DNA from: a virus
Strand: one strand, 5' to 3'
Virus record (IMG/VR): IMGVR_UViG_3300042876_000229
Coordinates: 1 to 21,052 of that record
Length of the DNA stretch: 21,052 nt
The translations under genes and the position numbers were made by a program. The notes beneath the pieces were generated by a model that saw only the letters and a list, made by a program, of their open reading frames with translations, searched no databases and was not told the DNA's origin. Every line of letters begins with the position of its first letter. Positions within the stretch are counted from its first letter, which is position 1. Of this stretch, positions 12,520-20,776 are shown piece by piece.

Positions 12520-12651
12520 CGCGTGGTAGACTGCCCCCGCCTCTGAGGGAGGGGTGGCACCATGCGCTAGTCCAGAAGAGGAAGGGCTCCAACACCCTGC
12601 CCGGTGTTGGAGCCCTGAGAGCACCCGCCCCGCGTGACCGAGGAGAGCGAC
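12508..12651 (+). other. 144-base leader region with start-stop minigene and hairpin
   Basis: The gap holds TAGACT at 12527-12532, an imperfect GC-rich hairpin at about 12532-12559, the ribosome-site-like GAGGGAGGGG (12545-12554) followed by ATG CGC TAG at 12562-12570, and the 12584-12615 hairpin. It looks like a regulated leader, but no known riboswitch is recognised. Confidence 0.4.
12584..12615 (+). terminator. Perfect hairpin before the primase-helicase gene
   Basis: A 13-bp perfect stem GGGCTCCAACACC (12584-12596)/GGTGTTGGAGCCC (12603-12615) with loop CTGCCC lies 36 bases before the TTG start at 12652. There is no T tract, so it is an intrinsic-type terminator of uncertain strength or an attenuator. 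Confidence 0.65.
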
Positions 12652-14931
12652 TTGGCGACGAGTGTAAGCACCCCCACCTCTGCAAAGCAATACCTCCAGG
12701 TGAGGCCCACCGTTCGCACCTCACCGCCCGCGGACCCGCGGATGGCGAAGGCGCAGAAGTGGACCGTCTGGACGATCCGCCCGGCGAAGGAGCCCGGCAA
12801 GAAGCCGTCGAAGGTCCCGGTCGCGAACATCACCGACCCCTCGACGTGGAGCTTCTACCCCACCGCCCGCTCGTGCCTGGATGACGAGAAGATCGCCGGG
12901 CTCGGGTTTATGATGTACGGGCGCCCCGGTGTCATTGGGGTGGACATCGACAACTGCATCGGAGATCTTGGGGAGCGCGGGCCGACCGCCACGCAGTTCC
13001 TCGCCATCCTCGAAGCGCACAAGACCAAGTGCCACGTCGAGATCTCTCCCTCGGGCAAGGGCTTGCGGGTCTTCGCGGCCGAGACGCCTACCCCCTTCCA
13101 CGACTTCACGAACAAGGACACGGGCGTCGAGTGCTACACCGGCGAGAGCCCGCGCTACCTCTGCTTCACCGGCGCGATCCTGCCCGAGTTCTCCGAGGTG
13201 GGCGGGCCGTTCGATCCGCTCCCGGACGAGGCGGTCATCTGGCTCGGCAAGCACGCCTCGAAGTGGAAGGAGGGCGCGCAGCCCGAGGCGGCGAAGGCCG
13301 AGGCGACCGCGGAGCCGGTGCCCGAGCTTTCGCGCCGCGATGACTGGAAGGATCTCTACCCGAAGGTCATCAAGCGGCTCTCGAAAGACCACAAGCAGTT
13401 CCTCGACACCGGCGCGCTCGGGGATCGGTACTCGTCGGCCTCGGAGCATCTCTTCGCGGTCGAGCAGTCGCTCCTCAAGCTCGGGCTCAAGCCCGCGCAG
13501 GCGTACCAAGTCCTCATCTCGGCCGAGGGCTCGTGGGGCGTGGCCCTGGAGCACCGCGAGGGGAAGACCGAGAAGGCCAAGGCGTTCGTCTGGGATGATC
13601 TCCAGCGGGCCGCCACCTCGAAGGAGAAGCACGAGAAGGACAAGGCGATCCAGAGCGCGGGCTGGAAGGACTGCGACATCGTGGTGGAGATGACCGAGGA
13701 CGGCGCCAAGGCCAAATGGCTCGCCCTCAACGTCCTCAACGCCTTCAAGAAGCATCCCGAGTGGATCAACCGCCTCGGCTACAACACCTTCGACGGGCGC
13801 GTCACCCTCGACAAGCAGAACGTGGAGAGCGAGCAGTTGATCACGATGTCCGCGTGGATCGTGGACTTCCTCAAGTGGTCGAGCGAGTTCAAGCGGGAGG
13901 CGTTCGAGGAGGCGCTCGCGGCGGCGGCCAAGGCCCGGCCCTGGAATCCTATCGAGGATCAACTCCGAGGGCTCGTGTGGGACTCGAAGAAGCGGCTCAA
14001 GCGATTCGTCGAGGCGCTCGTCGAGGAGCCCGAGCCGGTGGACTACGAGATCCTCAAGAAGTGGCTCGTGGCCTATGTGGCGCGCGGCATCGAGCCCGGG
14101 TGCCAGATGGACACGGTGCTCGTCCTGCGCGAGCGGGTGGGCGGCGGGTTCAAGACCAAGTTCTGCCGGGTGATGGCCGGTAGCATGGATCGCTTCTCCG
14201 ACTCGCCGGGCTTCGGCTCCGACCGAGAGAGCGCGATGCTTCGGGAGGGGATGCGGATCGTCGAACTCGGTGAGGGCGTGGCCGCGCGCAAGGCCGACCG
14301 CCACGAACTCAAGCGGGACATCACGAAGCTCGACGAGCAGTTCCGCCGGCCGTGGGGGCGCGGTGTCGAGCGTCGGCCGCGCGGCTTCGTCTACGTGATG
14401 ACGGTGAACGACTTCGCGTTCCTTCGCTCGGATCAAGACGGGCTCCGGCGCATCTGGCCGGTGAACGCGAAAGGCGTCATCGACATCGAGTGGATCAAGG
14501 CGAACCTCGACCAACTCCTCGCGGAGGCGGTGACGTGGTACGAGGCGGGGACCGCGTGGTGGTGGGACAAGGGCGAGGAGCCCGAGGCCCTCGTCGAGCG
14601 GCAGGGCTCCGCAGTCCAGGAGGACCCGCTCGACGCCGCGGTGGACGTGGTGATCTCCGACAAGGAGAACATCGAGCGCGGCTACACCACCCTCGCGCAG
14701 ATCAAGGCGCAGGTGGAGGGCGCGGCCGGCATCATCATCGGCGCCTCGCAGATGAACCACCTCATGGAGATCTGCCACAAGAACGGGCTCCGCTCGGGCA
14801 GGGAGCGGCGCATCGACGGGAGGAAGCTCCGGCCGTGGGTCCACGACTCGTGGAAGCCCACGGTGCCGGGGAAGGTGCTGGAGATGCGAACGGGGGCACC
14901 GGCCGGTGAGCCGGAGGAGGGCGTGGCGTGA
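12652..14931 (+). CDS. Bifunctional primase-polymerase/VapE-type helicase
   Basis: Encodes 759 residues from TTG 12652 (GAGGAGAG at 12640-12647 upstream); GTG 12634 is the alternative. The N-terminal domain carries archaeo-eukaryotic primase signatures: VDIDNC (Asp98, Asp100), SPSGKGLR (132-139) and VECYTGESPRYLCFTG (from 159), as in phage NrS-1-type prim-pols. The C-terminal half is a VapE-like superfamily 3-type ATPase: NPIEDQLRGLVWD, a P-loop region with Lys501, acidic VELGEG (537-542), then RRPWGRG and the sensor/finger TVNDFAFL-DGLRRIWPV. The P-loop reads RVGGGFKT, lacking the usual first Gly. The enzyme probably primes and unwinds at the origin. Its stop overlaps the methyltransferase-like gene. 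Confidence 0.87.
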   Translation: MATSVSTPTSAKQYLQVRPTVRTSPPADPRMAKAQKWTVWTIRPAKEPGKKPSKVPVANITDPSTWSFYPTARSCLDDEKIAGLGFMMYGRPGVIGVDIDNCIGDLGERGPTATQFLAILEAHKTKCHVEISPSGKGLRVFAAETPTPFHDFTNKDTGVECYTGESPRYLCFTGAILPEFSEVGGPFDPLPDEAVIWLGKHASKWKEGAQPEAAKAEATAEPVPELSRRDDWKDLYPKVIKRLSKDHKQFLDTGALGDRYSSASEHLFAVEQSLLKLGLKPAQAYQVLISAEGSWGVALEHREGKTEKAKAFVWDDLQRAATSKEKHEKDKAIQSAGWKDCDIVVEMTEDGAKAKWLALNVLNAFKKHPEWINRLGYNTFDGRVTLDKQNVESEQLITMSAWIVDFLKWSSEFKREAFEEALAAAAKARPWNPIEDQLRGLVWDSKKRLKRFVEALVEEPEPVDYEILKKWLVAYVARGIEPGCQMDTVLVLRERVGGGFKTKFCRVMAGSMDRFSDSPGFGSDRESAMLREGMRIVELGEGVAARKADRHELKRDITKLDEQFRRPWGRGVERRPRGFVYVMTVNDFAFLRSDQDGLRRIWPVNAKGVIDIEWIKANLDQLLAEAVTWYEAGTAWWWDKGEEPEALVERQGSAVQEDPLDAAVDVVISDKENIERGYTTLAQIKAQVEGAAGIIIGASQMNHLMEICHKNGLRSGRERRIDGRKLRPWVHDSWKPTVPGKVLEMRTGAPAGEPEEGVA

Positions 14932-15482
14932 GGGTCCTCGTCGCCTGCGAGTTCTCCGGGGTGGTGCGCGACGCCTTCCGCGCGCTCGGGCATACCGCGT
15001 GGTCCTGTGATCTCCTGCCGTCCGAGATGCCGGGGCCTCACTACCAGGGGGATGTGCTCGACATCCTCGACCTCGGGTGGGATCTCCTCATCGGACATCC
15101 GCCATGCACGCATCTGGCCGTGAGCGGGAGCCGGCACTTCTGGAGGAAGCAGAAGGAGCAGGCCGAGGCCCTCGATTTCGTGCGCGCCCTCATGGATGCC
15201 CCGGTTCCGCGCATCGCCATCGAGAACCCGGTGTCGGTGATCTCGACCCGAATCCGCAAGCCCGACCAAATCGTGCAGCCGTGGATGTTCGGGCACGGGG
15301 AGACCAAGGCCACCTGCCTCTGGCTCAAGAACATGCCGCCGCTCGTTCCGACGAAGGTGGTCTCCGGGAGGGAGCCGCGCGTCCACCGGATGGCGCCGGG
15401 GCCGAATCGGTGGCGGGAGAGGTCTCGAACGTACTTCGGGCTCGCGCAGGCGATGGCGGCTCAATGGGGAGGCCGGGCATGA
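14928..15482 (+). CDS. Compact cytosine-C5-methyltransferase-like protein
   Basis: Encodes 184 residues from GTG 14928, overlapping the upstream TGA (GTGA), with GGAGGAGG at 14913-14920. MRVLVACEFSGVVRDAF resembles the SAM-binding motif I, GDVLDI and DLLIGHPPCTHLAVSG the catalytic PPC loop (motif IV), and IENPVSVIS the ENV-type motif VI; RSRTYFGLAQAMAAQWG resembles the closing helix. This protein type is widespread in phages and usually annotated as DNA cytosine methyltransferase. It is about half the length of typical enzymes and lacks an obvious target-recognition domain, so it may have broad specificity, need a partner, or act on a different substrate. It could protect phage DNA from restriction. 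Confidence 0.8.
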   Translation: MRVLVACEFSGVVRDAFRALGHTAWSCDLLPSEMPGPHYQGDVLDILDLGWDLLIGHPPCTHLAVSGSRHFWRKQKEQAEALDFVRALMDAPVPRIAIENPVSVISTRIRKPDQIVQPWMFGHGETKATCLWLKNMPPLVPTKVVSGREPRVHRMAPGPNRWRERSRTYFGLAQAMAAQWGGRA

Positions 15483-15775
15483 GCGGCGCGATTCGGCGGG
15501 CGGCGGCATCGTGGCGGGGTCGGGCGGCGCTCTTCTCCTGGGGCATCCTCGTGCGTTCTGAGTGCCCTTGCCGAGGGCTCGGGCTCGTCGCCCGGCTCGT
15601 CGAGGTGAGGGGTTCGGAGAGGTACACTTTTGACGTGTGTCAAAATCCGGCCTGCCCCTCGAAGGCGCGGTTCGATCCGAGAATGACCGCGGTCAAGAAA
15701 TCCGAGTCGAAAAATGGGCCTCGCGGAAAGCCGATTTCGGAGATCACCATCAACGATTCCAAGGAGTTACGTTGA
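15479..15775 (+). CDS. Small Cys-containing protein, unknown
   Basis: Encodes 98 residues; its ATG overlaps the stop of the methyltransferase-like gene (ATGA), so it is probably translated by coupling. CPC at about 29-31 and CQNPAC at about 54-59 could form a four-Cys zinc ribbon. The N-terminus is Arg/Ala-rich and the C-terminus is KKSESKNGPRGKPISEIT, with less GC-biased codons than neighbours. The stretch of bases 15628-15645 inside it is a perfect palindrome. It is the last gene before the repeat-rich non-coding region. Confidence 0.65.
   Translation: MSGAIRRAAASWRGRAALFSWGILVRSECPCRGLGLVARLVEVRGSERYTFDVCQNPACPSKARFDPRMTAVKKSESKNGPRGKPISEITINDSKELR
15628..15645. repeat. Perfect AT-rich palindrome within a coding region
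   Basis: TTTTGACGTGTGTCAAAA has 7-bp perfect arms and a 4-base spacer in otherwise GC-rich DNA, preceded by a TACACT hexamer (15623-15628). It encodes TFDVCQ in the gene at 15479, so an operator function is only possible. Confidence 0.35.
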
Positions 15776-15801
15776 TTTGCTGTCTCACCCGTCTCACCCC
15801 C

Positions 15802-15821
15802 GTCTCACCCTGGGGTGAGAC
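15802..15821 (+). repeat. Box pair forming a hairpin
   Basis: GTCTCACCCTGGGGTGAGAC is a head-to-head box pair that can fold as an 8-bp stem with a CTGG loop, followed by ACTTTT. It could also terminate transcription from the gene ending at 15775. Confidence 0.5.
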
Positions 15822-15855
15822 ACTTTTCGCCTTCTCTCCCAACGGTTTCCTTCTA

Positions 15856-15880
15856 CTGTCTCACCCGTCTCACCCAAATC
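15856..15880 (+). repeat. Inner arm, left copy (25-bp perfect inverted repeat)
   Basis: Two tandem boxes with flanks CT and AAATC; perfectly complementary to 15944-15968. Confidence 0.85.
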
Positions 15881-15943
15881 ATAGGTAACGAAGGGGGATA
15901 GGTGATCGAGAGGAGGTGTCGGGTTCCAGAGAAGGTTGGGCTC

Positions 15944-15968
15944 GATTTGGGTGAGACGGGTGAGACAG
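15944..15968 (-). repeat. Inner arm, right copy (25-bp perfect inverted repeat)
   Basis: Reverse complement of 15856-15880 across a 63-base unrelated centre (15881-15943). Confidence 0.85.
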
Positions 15969-16068
15969 CGTAGTTAAGCGTCGGTGATCGTTAAGCTTTA
16001 GGTGTCTCACCCCCTCTGAGACAGGGTGAGACGGGGTGAGACGGCTGGCGCAGGCGCAGTTCCGGTGG

Positions 16069-16096
16069 TTGCACGCATCCCAAACGGGTATAAGAT
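16069..16096 (+). promoter_or_regulatory. Promoter with predicted leaderless small terminase start
   Basis: TTGCAC (16069-16074) and TAAGAT (16091-16096), within GGTATAAGAT, are spaced by 16 bases. Transcription should start near 16102-16105, and the gene's ATG is at 16104. No ribosome site is seen. The repeat array ends 26 bases upstream of the -35. Confidence 0.6.
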
Positions 16097-16103
16097 CGCT
16101 CCG

Positions 16104-16646
16104 ATGGCTTTGACAGACAAAGAGATTTCGTTCATCGACGAATACTTGATCAACGGGTGCAACGCCACGGAAGCGATCCGTAAGGTGAGCCCGAAGATCA
16201 AGGACAACTCCGCGAGGACCGAGGGGTGGCGGATGTTGATCAAGGCTGACGTGCGAGCCGAGATCGACCGCAGGCTCGCAGAGCGGCGGGCGCAGAACAA
16301 GCTCACCGTGGCGCACGTCGAGAACCTGCTCCGAGACTTCGCAGAGGTGGATCTCCTCGACATCTTCCAGGAGGATGGGGACCTCAAGCCGCTCTCCGAG
16401 ATTCCGCCGCACGCTCGTCGCGCCATCGCGAGCATCGAAGTCGAAGAGATCTGGGATGGTCCGCGCGGAGAGCGCGAGTGCATCGGCCACCTCAAGAAGA
16501 TCAAACTCGTGGACAAGCGAGGCGCCGCGGAGCTTCTCGGCAAGTGGAAGAAGATGTTCACCGACAAGGTGGAGGTGGGCGGCACCGATGGCGGGCCGCT
16601 CCGCATCTCCGTGTCGATCAACGGCATCAAGAAGGGACAGGGGTAG
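16104..16646 (+). CDS. Terminase small subunit
   Basis: Encodes 180 residues. The N-terminus LTDKEISFIDEYLINGCNATEAIRKV is the helix-turn-helix start of Terminase_2-type small subunits, continuing through SARTEGWRMLIKADVRAEIDRRLAERRAQN and the helical central region VAHVENLLRDFAEVDLLDIF. The LLGKWKKMFTDKVEVGG end is also usual for this family. Small terminases form rings that recognise phage DNA and regulate the large subunit. ATG 16104 has no ribosome site and lies at the predicted transcription start; in-frame codons upstream (to 16026) run into the repeat array. Its gene follows a symmetric repeat array that may be its binding site. Confidence 0.88.
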   Translation: MALTDKEISFIDEYLINGCNATEAIRKVSPKIKDNSARTEGWRMLIKADVRAEIDRRLAERRAQNKLTVAHVENLLRDFAEVDLLDIFQEDGDLKPLSEIPPHARRAIASIEVEEIWDGPRGERECIGHLKKIKLVDKRGAAELLGKWKKMFTDKVEVGGTDGGPLRISVSINGIKKGQG

Positions 16647-17127: not shown

Positions 17128-17369
17128 CCCCGAGCGCGTTCCCCGAGGCCAACGCGGTCCTGCGCCGCCCCGAGGGCATGACCGAGGCCGAGTGCGGTGA
17201 TCTCCACGTTCACCGCACGGGCGAGGCGTTCATCTCGATGTGGACACCCACGCCCGAGGAGCGCGCCGCCATCGCGGCCGGTGCGCCGATCTACCTGTGG
17301 GTCTTCGGCTCGGGGCACCCGCCCGTCGCGGTCGAGACATTCAACCCGTTCAAGGCCAAGGATGCCTGA
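17124..17369 (+). CDS. Small conserved phage protein, unknown
   Basis: Encodes 81 residues from GTG 17124 overlapping the previous stop. The pattern GMTEAECGDLHVHRTGEAFISMW followed by PTPEERAAIAAGAPIYLWVFGSG and PPVAVETFNPF is familiar from small phage proteins, often near head or packaging genes, without known function. It overlaps the large terminase start by 8 bases, so expression is probably coupled. No catalytic motif is seen. Confidence 0.78.
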   Translation: MTPSAFPEANAVLRRPEGMTEAECGDLHVHRTGEAFISMWTPTPEERAAIAAGAPIYLWVFGSGHPPVAVETFNPFKAKDA

Positions 17370-19041
17370 GATCAACATCAACTTCGATGCGCCGCCCGTG
17401 GTCGGGGACTTCCTCGGCTGCGACGAGTTCGTGCGGCTCATCGTCGGGCCGGTGGGCTCGGGCAAATCCTCTGGGTGCTGCATGGAGGGCCTCCGGCGCG
17501 CGATGGAGATGCCGCCCTCGCCTTGCTGCGAGGCGTACAAGCAAGGCCAGCCTTGCGAGTGCAGGGAGCGGGTGCGCAAGAGCCGCGGGGCCATCGTGCG
17601 CAACACGCTCCCGCAGCTTCGCGACACCACGATGAAGACGTGGCGCGAATGGATCCCCGAGCACCTCGGCTACTGGAAGCTCTCCGAGAAGATGTTCGTG
17701 ATCGACTTCCCGCTCGGGGACGGCACGCGCGTCTACTGCGAGGTGCTCTTCCGCGCCCTCGACGACGCGGACGACGTGCGGAACCTGCTCTCGCTCGAAC
17801 TCACCTGGATCTACTTCAACGAGTGGCGCGAGATCAACAAGGCCATCCACGACGCGGCGCAGACGCGAGTGGGCCGCTACCCGCGCAAGGAGGACGTGCC
17901 GCGCTACTGGACGGGCGTGTTTGGTGACTCGAACGCCTTCGACACCGATCACTACCTGTACAAGCTCTTCAAGGAGCCGGATCCCGAGACCGGCCTCCCC
18001 CTCGAAGGCCACCGCATCTTCGAGCAACCGGGCGGGCTGGAGGCCAACGCGGAGAACCGCGAGCACCTCGACCGATGCTTCGACCCCGACGAGCAGGCGC
18101 TCGCGGCAGCGGCGGTGCGCCTCGGGGACGAACTCAACATCCGTGATCCGCAGGTGATGAAGGAGGCGCGGCGCGAGCAGGACGAGCGGCTCGCGGCCGG
18201 TGAGCACGAGAAGCCCTGCCGGTGCTACTACCTGCGGATGATGCGCGGCAAGCGGCAGTCATGGATCGACTGCTACATCCACAACAAGTACGTGTTCGCG
18301 GTGGACGGCAGGCCGATCTACGACAACTTCAATCAGCGCATCCACGTCGCAGAGTTCGAGGTGCCGAAGAAGGTCAAGGTGATCTTCCACGGGCAGGACT
18401 ACGGGCTCACGCCTGCCATCGTCTTCGCCCACGTCATGCCCGATGGACAGATCCGCATCTCGCACGAGTTCGTCTCGGAGCGGATGGGCGCCCTCAACTT
18501 CGGCACCGAGGCGGCCAAGCTCGCCAAGCGGGAGTTCCCCGGCGCTCGCCTCGAAGGGTGGGGCGATCCCGCAGGCATGGCGGCCTCGCCCACCGACGAG
18601 GAGAAGACTCCGATCTCGGTGGTGAACGGGTGCGGCCTGCCCACGAGCCCGGCGCCTACGAACGAGTGGACGATCCGGCGCGACGCCTTCGGGCTCTGCC
18701 TCGGCACGCTCACGATGACGGGCGAGCCCGAGATCCTCATCCACCCCCGCTGCAAGACGCTCATCAAGGCGTGCGCGGGGGCCTACTGCCTCAAGCGCAA
18801 GAAGGTGACGGGCGACGAGCAGTTCCACGATCACCCCGACAAGAACGAGTGGTCGCACGTCGCGGAGGCCGCGCAATACCTCGTAGTCGGCCTTGGCCGG
18901 GATCGTCGCGTACTGGATGGTGGCGTTGACGACCCCGAAAGGGTACAGTCGGTGAGGATTCACCGTTCGACAGAGCGGGGAGCCGCGGAGGACGGGCCGC
19001 GGGTGACGGTTTCGATCAGACGGTCCACTTCGCGGAGGTAG
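17362..19041 (+). CDS. Terminase large subunit (packaging ATPase-nuclease)
   Basis: Encodes 559 residues. The packaging ATPase shows Walker A GPVGSGKS (29-36) and Walker B-type WIYFNE with catalytic Glu154; Asn precedes the Glu instead of the more usual Asp. Motif RNTLPQLRDTT follows the P-loop as in other large terminases. The C-terminal RNase H-like nuclease has Asp346 (GQDYGLTP), Asp402 (WGDPAG) and Asp493 in DKNEWSHVAEA. It cuts concatemers and drives DNA into the head through the portal. A Cys-rich stretch (PPSPCCEAY and QPCEC, about 51-67) lies between P-loop and coupling motif and a second (PCRCYYL) before the nuclease. ATG 17362 overlaps the upstream gene by 8 bases. Confidence 0.94.
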   Translation: MPEININFDAPPVVGDFLGCDEFVRLIVGPVGSGKSSGCCMEGLRRAMEMPPSPCCEAYKQGQPCECRERVRKSRGAIVRNTLPQLRDTTMKTWREWIPEHLGYWKLSEKMFVIDFPLGDGTRVYCEVLFRALDDADDVRNLLSLELTWIYFNEWREINKAIHDAAQTRVGRYPRKEDVPRYWTGVFGDSNAFDTDHYLYKLFKEPDPETGLPLEGHRIFEQPGGLEANAENREHLDRCFDPDEQALAAAAVRLGDELNIRDPQVMKEARREQDERLAAGEHEKPCRCYYLRMMRGKRQSWIDCYIHNKYVFAVDGRPIYDNFNQRIHVAEFEVPKKVKVIFHGQDYGLTPAIVFAHVMPDGQIRISHEFVSERMGALNFGTEAAKLAKREFPGARLEGWGDPAGMAASPTDEEKTPISVVNGCGLPTSPAPTNEWTIRRDAFGLCLGTLTMTGEPEILIHPRCKTLIKACAGAYCLKRKKVTGDEQFHDHPDKNEWSHVAEAAQYLVVGLGRDRRVLDGGVDDPERVQSVRIHRSTERGAAEDGPRVTVSIRRSTSRR

Positions 19042-19045
19042 AGCA

Positions 19046-20776
19046 ATGGCGATCACGATGGCGCAGAGCAACCGGCACAAGTCCCTTCGGCGGCGATTCC
19101 TCGCCTCCGAGACGAAGTTCACCGACTACCGAGCGGTGCGCGAGCGGATCGAGCACTTCATGGGCCCGGTGGATGACGATGCGGGCGTCCGCACGGACGT
19201 GTTCGACTTCACCGCCATCGACGGGCGCGAGAAGCTCTCGGCCTCGATCCACGGCTCGCTCGTGCCGCAGTCGGTGCGGTGGTTCCAGGGTGCCTACCGC
19301 AAGCGCAACAATCTCAACAAGAACCCCGAGGCGGCCAAGTACCGGGACGAGGTGATCGACGAGGTATGGAACACCCTCGGCGCCTCCGATTTCTACCTGG
19401 AGATGGCCTCGGCCTGCCACGAGGCCACCGGCCCTGGCAACGCTCTCATGGCGGTCGAGCCGGTGTACGAGGATCTCGCGGAGACGGAACTGGAGACCAT
19501 CGACTTCACCGCCATCCCCACCAACGAGGCGCGGTGGGAGCAGGACCGGCGCGGGGAGATCAAGACCTTCTGGCACGAGTTCGAGTGGGAGCCGTCGCAG
19601 ATCGACGACTTCTGCGAGGCCAAGGGCTACAAGAAGTTCGAGGACATCACCCTGCGCGTGGAGAAGGCGAACCGCGACCCGGTGAAGATCGTCCATTGCA
19701 TCTTCCCGCGCGAGAAGATCATCAAGCGGAAGAAGATGGTCTACCCGGCCGCGCCCGAGAACCGGCCGTGGGGCTCGTTGTGGTGGCGCGAGGACACCGG
19801 CGAGGTGTTCGTGCGCGAGATGGACGGCAAGGCCGAGGGCGGCTACTACGAGAAGCCGATCCACCTGCTCCGCTGGAGCCGCAAGGGCAACGGGCTCGTC
19901 GGCTACGGGCCGGGCAACATCGCCCTCCCCACGGTCGAGTTCGTCAACGCATGGCTGGAGGACTACCTCAAGGCCGGCGAGAAGGCGCTCGATCCGCCCA
20001 CCATCGGCACGAACCGCAACATGCTCACGGAACTCGACCACCGCCCCGGTCGCCACACCCTCGTGCGCGACGTGGACGACATCAAGGAGATCCCTGGCCG
20101 CGCGAACTTCGTGGTGGCGGACAAGATCATCGAGATGCTCTTCGCGCAGATCCGCCAGATCTTCCGCACGGACGACCTCCAACTCAAGGAGTCGCCCGCG
20201 ATGACCGCGATGGAGGTGCAGGTTCGCTACGAGATCATGAACCGGCTCCTCGGCAAGACCCTCACCTTCATCCAGCAATTCCTCGGCGCGATCATCCGCG
20301 CCTGCATCTCGATCCTCATGCGCGCCGGGCGTCTGCCCGAGATGCCCAAGGTGGTCGAGAAGGCCGGCGGGGCGATGAACATCGAGTACCAGGGCCCGCT
20401 CGCGCGTTCGCAGCGCACGGACGAGGTGGCCGCGGTCGAGCGGTGGGTCTCGATGATCTACGGCATGGCGCAGTTCGACCCGCGCATCCGCGCCGCCATC
20501 GCGCCGAAGAAGATCGCGGAGTACCTGCGAGAGCGCCTCGGCATCCCGGCCGACCTCATGCCCACCGAGCAGGAGATGGAGGCGCGCATGAAGGAGATCG
20601 ACTCGATGGAGCAGAGGGCCGTGGCCTCGCAGGCGCAGGCGAACGAGGCCAAGGCGGCGAAGGACAACGCGGCGGCGCAGGCCGCGGGCCCGGTGCAGGG
20701 CGCGGTGTACCCGTCGCTCCCGCCGAAGCCCCCGCTCGCTCCGAGCGGCCGAGTGGCGGCGGCCGGAATCCAGTAA
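19046..20776 (+). CDS. Portal (T7-type head-tail connector) protein
   Basis: Encodes 576 residues, close to T7 gp8 (about 536). The layout matches the T7-like head-to-tail connector family: MAQSNRHKSLRRRF, SSIHGSLVPQSVRWF-like start (here LSASIHGSLVPQ), an EATGPGNALMAVEP segment, FPREKIIKRKKMVYPA, the KGNGLVGYGPGNIALP core, QLKESPAMTAMEVQVRYE and the LGKTLTFIQQFLGAIIRACI helix. It forms the dodecameric ring through which DNA is packaged. GGAGG (19034-19038) supports ATG 19046, four bases after the terminase stop; an in-frame ATG at 19058 is possible. The C-terminus is Ala/Gln/Lys-rich then Pro-rich. It indicates a podovirus-type virion. Confidence 0.9.
   Translation: MAITMAQSNRHKSLRRRFLASETKFTDYRAVRERIEHFMGPVDDDAGVRTDVFDFTAIDGREKLSASIHGSLVPQSVRWFQGAYRKRNNLNKNPEAAKYRDEVIDEVWNTLGASDFYLEMASACHEATGPGNALMAVEPVYEDLAETELETIDFTAIPTNEARWEQDRRGEIKTFWHEFEWEPSQIDDFCEAKGYKKFEDITLRVEKANRDPVKIVHCIFPREKIIKRKKMVYPAAPENRPWGSLWWREDTGEVFVREMDGKAEGGYYEKPIHLLRWSRKGNGLVGYGPGNIALPTVEFVNAWLEDYLKAGEKALDPPTIGTNRNMLTELDHRPGRHTLVRDVDDIKEIPGRANFVVADKIIEMLFAQIRQIFRTDDLQLKESPAMTAMEVQVRYEIMNRLLGKTLTFIQQFLGAIIRACISILMRAGRLPEMPKVVEKAGGAMNIEYQGPLARSQRTDEVAAVERWVSMIYGMAQFDPRIRAAIAPKKIAEYLRERLGIPADLMPTEQEMEARMKEIDSMEQRAVASQAQANEAKAAKDNAAAQAAGPVQGAVYPSLPPKPPLAPSGRVAAAGIQ

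Follow-up and report, generated by a model that had tools for sequence, protein, structure and literature searches.

The window analyzed here, meaning the whole stretch of DNA under study, is the entire public virus record IMGVR_UViG_3300042876_000229, which comprises 21,052 bases and has its main genes all on one strand. A family-A DNA polymerase and an SNF2-type helicase were read in the record, along with the following features.

12634..14931, plus strand: VapE-type primase-helicase, 765 residues, the proposed initiator (Pfam VapE-like_dom, E=1.4e-46; PDB matches)
12727..13185, plus strand: N-terminal primase (PrimPol-like) domain, residues 32-184 (phmmer to Primase chains 6k9a/6a9w/7rr3, about 2e-8; PHROG DNA primase matches)
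14662..14844, plus strand: C-terminal winged-helix-like domain, residues 677-737, the proposed box-binding domain (AlphaFold2 model, Foldseek)
14928..15482, plus strand: DNA methyltransferase gene, between helicase and array (phrog_757, E=1.1e-69)
15479..15775, plus strand: small ORF without a family match in Pfam/PHROG searches, ending 6 bases ahead of the first box
15782..15821, no strand: left outer box cluster, F F F R (15782, 15791, 15802, 15813)
15822..15857, no strand: left spacer, 53% A+T
15858..15875, no strand: inner left box pair, F F (15858, 15867)
15876..15948, no strand: array centre, 49% A+T, the proposed melting region
15949..15966, no strand: inner right box pair, R R (15949, 15958)
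15967..16003, no strand: right spacer, 54% A+T
16004..16042, no strand: right outer box cluster, F (r) R R (16004, degenerate 16014, 16024, 16034)
16104..16646, plus strand: small terminase (TerS) gene, the array's neighbour, ATG at 16104 (Pfam Terminase_2, E=7.1e-25)
17356-19041: TerL match
19046-20776: podovirus-type portal

PICI satellites are helper-dependent, small, and without full capsid genes; the record carries TerS, a portal, and a TerL match and is a phage fragment, not a PICI satellite. A tRNA-like gene at 1584-1658 on the minus strand (Rfam RF00005, 53.1 bits) overlaps predicted ORFs, and the Rfam search of the record returned nothing beyond that tRNA.

An initial annotation of this DNA had described eleven exact boxes mirrored about position 15912 to within one base, with a perfect 25-bp inverted repeat at their core, and each of these observations was confirmed. 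All eleven copies of GTCTCACCC lie within 15782-16042 at the positions and strands first described, and none occurs elsewhere in the 21,052-base record, while shuffled sequence contained a mean of 0.34 boxes and at most 2. The order is FFFRFF-RRF(r)RR (F, forward; R, reverse; r, degenerate). With the mirror axis at 15912.0, an opposite-orientation partner was found within 1 base for 10 of the 11 boxes, and pairing was complete (12/12) once the degenerate site at 16014-16022 (CTCTGAGAC, 6/9 matches) was counted; permutation of gaps and orientations reached 10 mirrored boxes in 3 of 5000 trials. The inverted repeat occupies 15856-15880/15944-15968. A+T content is 49-54% in the spacers and centre, versus 34% record-wide, the enrichment of the centre being moderate.

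The array is wholly intergenic and upstream of the late genes, with 61 bases between the last box and the TerS start codon. It begins 851 bases beyond the helicase stop, the methyltransferase gene and small ORF intervening. The same array is present in a second public record (L083/L081) that has an identical TerS (100%), making an assembly artefact unlikely. GC skew, which the annotation had suggested as a check, displayed no turning point at the array, a result that is uninformative with the main genes all on one strand. A scan of 15400-16200 covering sigma-70-like promoters alone detected none.

The helicase matched PDB entry 7pds (PriRep1, "Similar to D. nodosus vapE") with E=8.5e-19, and its N-terminal part matched the Primase chains 6k9a and 6a9w at E about 2e-8. 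The VapE-like domain and the primase match are thus fused in one 765-residue protein, the combination of initiator with primase that characterizes a SaPI/PICI-type replicon. An AlphaFold2 model of residues 400-765 (mean pLDDT 89.8) ends in an HHH + beta wing arrangement, and the C-terminal end of the model accordingly looks like a winged helix. The best Foldseek match of this model was again 7pds, PriRep1 with dsDNA (E=6.6e-18), followed by the C-terminal region of NrS-1 polymerase. The P-loop, LRERVGGGFKT, is atypical: it is longer by one residue, and R takes the place of the G present in 55 of 57 aligned relatives. The deviation is either genuine or due to an error in the sequence.

The nearest distinct relative, L084, encodes a helicase and a TerS that are 56% and 50% identical, respectively, to those of the window. 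Its boxes, GTCCCACC, have nearly the same order and spacing and start inside the last helicase codons, so that array and gene overlap there; in most relatives the array follows that gene directly, compared with the 851 bases and two ORFs found in the window. A methyltransferase with a similar N-terminus is upstream of the helicase in L084 (L084:75-761) rather than in the helicase-origin interval as in the record, indicating that this gene has moved relative to the origin. In L100, whose TerS is 27% identical, an 800-residue primase-type protein is followed by CTTGTGTC boxes and then by TerS. The TerS relatives L086, L090, L092, L093, L095, L096, L098, L101, and L102 have no array in the 800 bases upstream of the gene, and a VapE match over the family cut-off was found in none of those searched, that is, all but L102.

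We then surveyed VapE helicase genes at large. The window helicase alone returned no matches in a search of viral contigs, while an alignment of it with L084 and two Pseudomonas phages recovered 160 loci, of which 145 had usable helicase genes, falling into 60 protein clusters and totaling 594,896 bases. An array was called when one 8-mer was present in at least 6 copies within 420 bases and in both orientations. By this strict test 25 of the 60 clusters were positive, and all 25 arrays start between -60 and +500 from the helicase stop; none was located away from it in the 594,896 bases. Markov-shuffled controls gave an array in 1 of 600 loci. The 35 clusters negative by this test may include missed arrays, since the strict scan also missed most SaPI-type arrays, whose boxes are degenerate. 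Annotated phages likewise carry arrays, each with a private box, in the non-coding gap behind the VapE/helicase gene: PLE2 (TGTAGACACT), LfeSau (TGTTACACC), Adelaide (GGGACAACC), Javan551 (TGATGGTACA), AJG77 (ACTGCAACA), and phi12 (TGATGCAACA). LPPA36 and Haddon have CTGTCCCAC nearby, and ARB14, KA2-1, 1358, FoX5, Mano, and Mica have no array in the gap after the helicase gene.

Two GTCTCACCC boxes were present in 74 viral stretches, 16 of which have a cluster of at least 4 copies, and most are not arrays; the single-orientation copies that were read, such as those in L014, proved to be coding repeats and were set aside. At L014:13467-13961 a one-orientation run of GTCTCACC is part of a coding repeat of collagen-like Gly-rich units unrelated to origins. 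Arrays of the GTCTCACC type adjoin terminase genes in four truncated contigs (L026:11908-12206, L058:5041-5339, L034:10099-10462, and L038:5004-5107), in which neither a VapE nor a D5_N helicase was found. Five contigs, either array-bearing or from relatives, were likewise searched for D5_N without a match.

In the arrays of the VapE survey, the start-to-start distances between boxes cluster at 8-12, 20-22, and 43-47 bases. A spacing of about 9, 11, 21, and 45 bases, followed by 80-110 over the centre, is kept while the boxes differ, as can be seen from the gaps of the window (9,11,12,44,9,83,9,45,21,10), L236 (9,11,21,47,9,78,9,46,21,11,9), and L234 (10,11,22,44,9,101,9,9). The order FFFRFF-RR is common to the window, L234, L224, L236, and L275, which have unrelated boxes. 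This recurrence bears out the suggestion of the annotation that selection acts on the boxes and their geometry. Tested against permutations of themselves, the arrays of L218, L236, and L244 are mirror-symmetric and several others are not. L218 and L244, both from Candidatus Thiodiazotropha genomes, have near-perfect mirrored arrays with the boxes TTGCCAAC and TTGCTAAC and are a good pair for testing helicase specificity. Across the arrays, box sequence tracks the helicase C-terminal domain only weakly (Mantel 0.099, p=0.14; 0.17, p=0.03 in the partial test that controls for the ATPase region).

The same spacing was observed in SaPI-sized elements. With 227 residues of the 7pds protein as the query, we matched 46 contigs, many of which are about 10-15 kb and thus the size of a SaPI. 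In L290, whose Rep is 100% identical to 7pds over the whole 227-residue query, TGTCCC-type boxes lie right behind rep in the order RrrrFF-RRrffR with gaps of 8,11,11,44,8,78,8, and similar arrays are present in L333 and L324. The inner and outer steps are 83 and 44-45 in the window, 78 and 44 in L290, 43 and 43 in L333, and 71 and 43 in L324, so that by our own comparison, which is not a published criterion, the box geometry of the window agrees with that of the SaPI-type contigs. The window array is more fully mirror-symmetric than that of L290. With the described SaPI/PICI rep-ori (PMC6092414, PMC7581432) the window shares a helicase with a primase domain, a downstream iteron array, and facing box sets that flank a more A+T-rich centre, the inner pair about 80 bases apart and the outer about 44 further; the closest solved structure to its helicase is PriRep1. 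The C-terminal domain of SaPI Rep recognizes the downstream origin (PMC7581432). In replicons of this type the origin is placed directly 3' of rep, and rep together with ori drives autonomous replication. Unlike those systems, the window array belongs to a phage whose record itself encodes terminase, portal, and DNA polymerase, its box is GTCTCACCC, it is 851 bases from the helicase stop, and its centre is less A+T-rich.

Other initiators offer partial parallels. The P4 alpha protein, a primase-helicase that recognizes iterons at its ori, resembles the system proposed for the window. P4 has been treated as independently evolved (PMC6092414). The SCCmec Cch2 origin also combines a self-loading-type helicase with a repeat region downstream of its own gene, which Cch2 binds through its C-terminal domain, but it has three iterons only, in direct repeat, and the helicase belongs to the D5_N / Primase_Cterm family (PMC7581432).

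The initial annotation had named packaging, replication, and multi-operator control as possible functions and preferred packaging on the strength of the adjacent terS. The replication origin is the option that the evidence favours; the preference for packaging was not supported, as arrays stay with the VapE helicase while the neighbour varies. As a pac or cosB-like site, the array would be bound at its boxes by TerS, which would start packaging beside its own gene. The TerS start 61 bases downstream fits such a site, as does the presence of a terminase as the next gene at L144, L182, L210, L215, and L234 (TerS) and at L224, L275, and L218 (TerL), and next to the arrays of the truncated contigs L026, L034, and L038, with no helicase found. 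A pac or cos site marks the ends of virion DNA, and at P1/SPP1 pac and lambda cosB, TerS recognizes short repeated boxes that lie within its gene or close to it; unlike these, the present arrays follow the helicase gene and not terS. All 25 arrays of the survey lie at the helicase stop, and the gene that comes next can instead encode a minor tail protein (L206, L232, L236), an SNF2-type helicase (L198), an antiterminator (L244), or an HNH nuclease (L130), with VRR-NUC/endonuclease genes next to the arrays of Gram-positive phages. The box geometry that the annotation proposed to look for in related phages does recur, in L084 and many others, tied to the helicase gene. Moreover, the adjacent TerS proteins are not all of one family, being phrog_51 in the window and phrog_57 at five other loci, and no array accompanies those relatives of the window TerS that have 800 or more bases of upstream sequence and lack a VapE match above the cut-off. 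Given these varied neighbours, and the lack of arrays in TerS relatives that have no such helicase, we rejected packaging as the general function and consider it very improbable here; TerS is not thought to be the box-binding protein.

An origin that doubles as the packaging start in those phages where terS adjoins would account for the frequent adjacency to terminase genes but is improbable; gene order explains that adjacency as well, for the replication module ends with the origin and the late genes come next. The array might otherwise be a set of operators at which a repressor or activator controls the late operon beginning with terS. Multi-box operators occur in phages, and the array is wholly intergenic and ahead of the late genes; the scan for sigma-70-like promoters in 15400-16200 was negative, and the geometry is kept beside genes of different function and is common to SaPI-type contigs behind rep, leaving operator control extremely improbable.

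The tie to the helicase gene, the shared geometry, the SaPI-type contigs, and the similarity to PriRep1 together lead us to read the array as a cognate origin. Judged from sequence, it is very probably the replication origin of the phage, bilateral and of the SaPI/PICI type although the phage has capsid genes of its own, and cognate to the phage's own VapE primase-helicase. Counted against an origin are the distance of the array from the helicase stop, the moderately A+T-rich centre, the 35 of 60 clusters without arrays by the strict test, the weak covariation of box and C-terminal domain, the absent GC-skew turning point, and the atypical P-loop. We infer a mechanism in which the C-terminal domain of the helicase would bind the GTCTCACCC boxes on both sides, the mirrored half-sites giving two oppositely facing assemblies. 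The A+T-richer centre and spacers would then melt, one helicase ring would be loaded per strand, and the N-terminal primase domain would prime bidirectional synthesis by the family-A DNA polymerase.

It is also rather likely that a bilateral origin of fixed spacing and freely changing box is common in VapE-helicase phages across many bacterial groups and is shared by PICIs. This would provide a sequence rule for the origins of many uncharacterized phages, namely a mirrored iteron array behind the stop codon of the helicase gene, and the helicase/box pairs would form a natural data set for learning how such initiators read DNA. A PICI-type origin layout in phages with their own packaging genes bears in turn on the provenance of satellite replicons.
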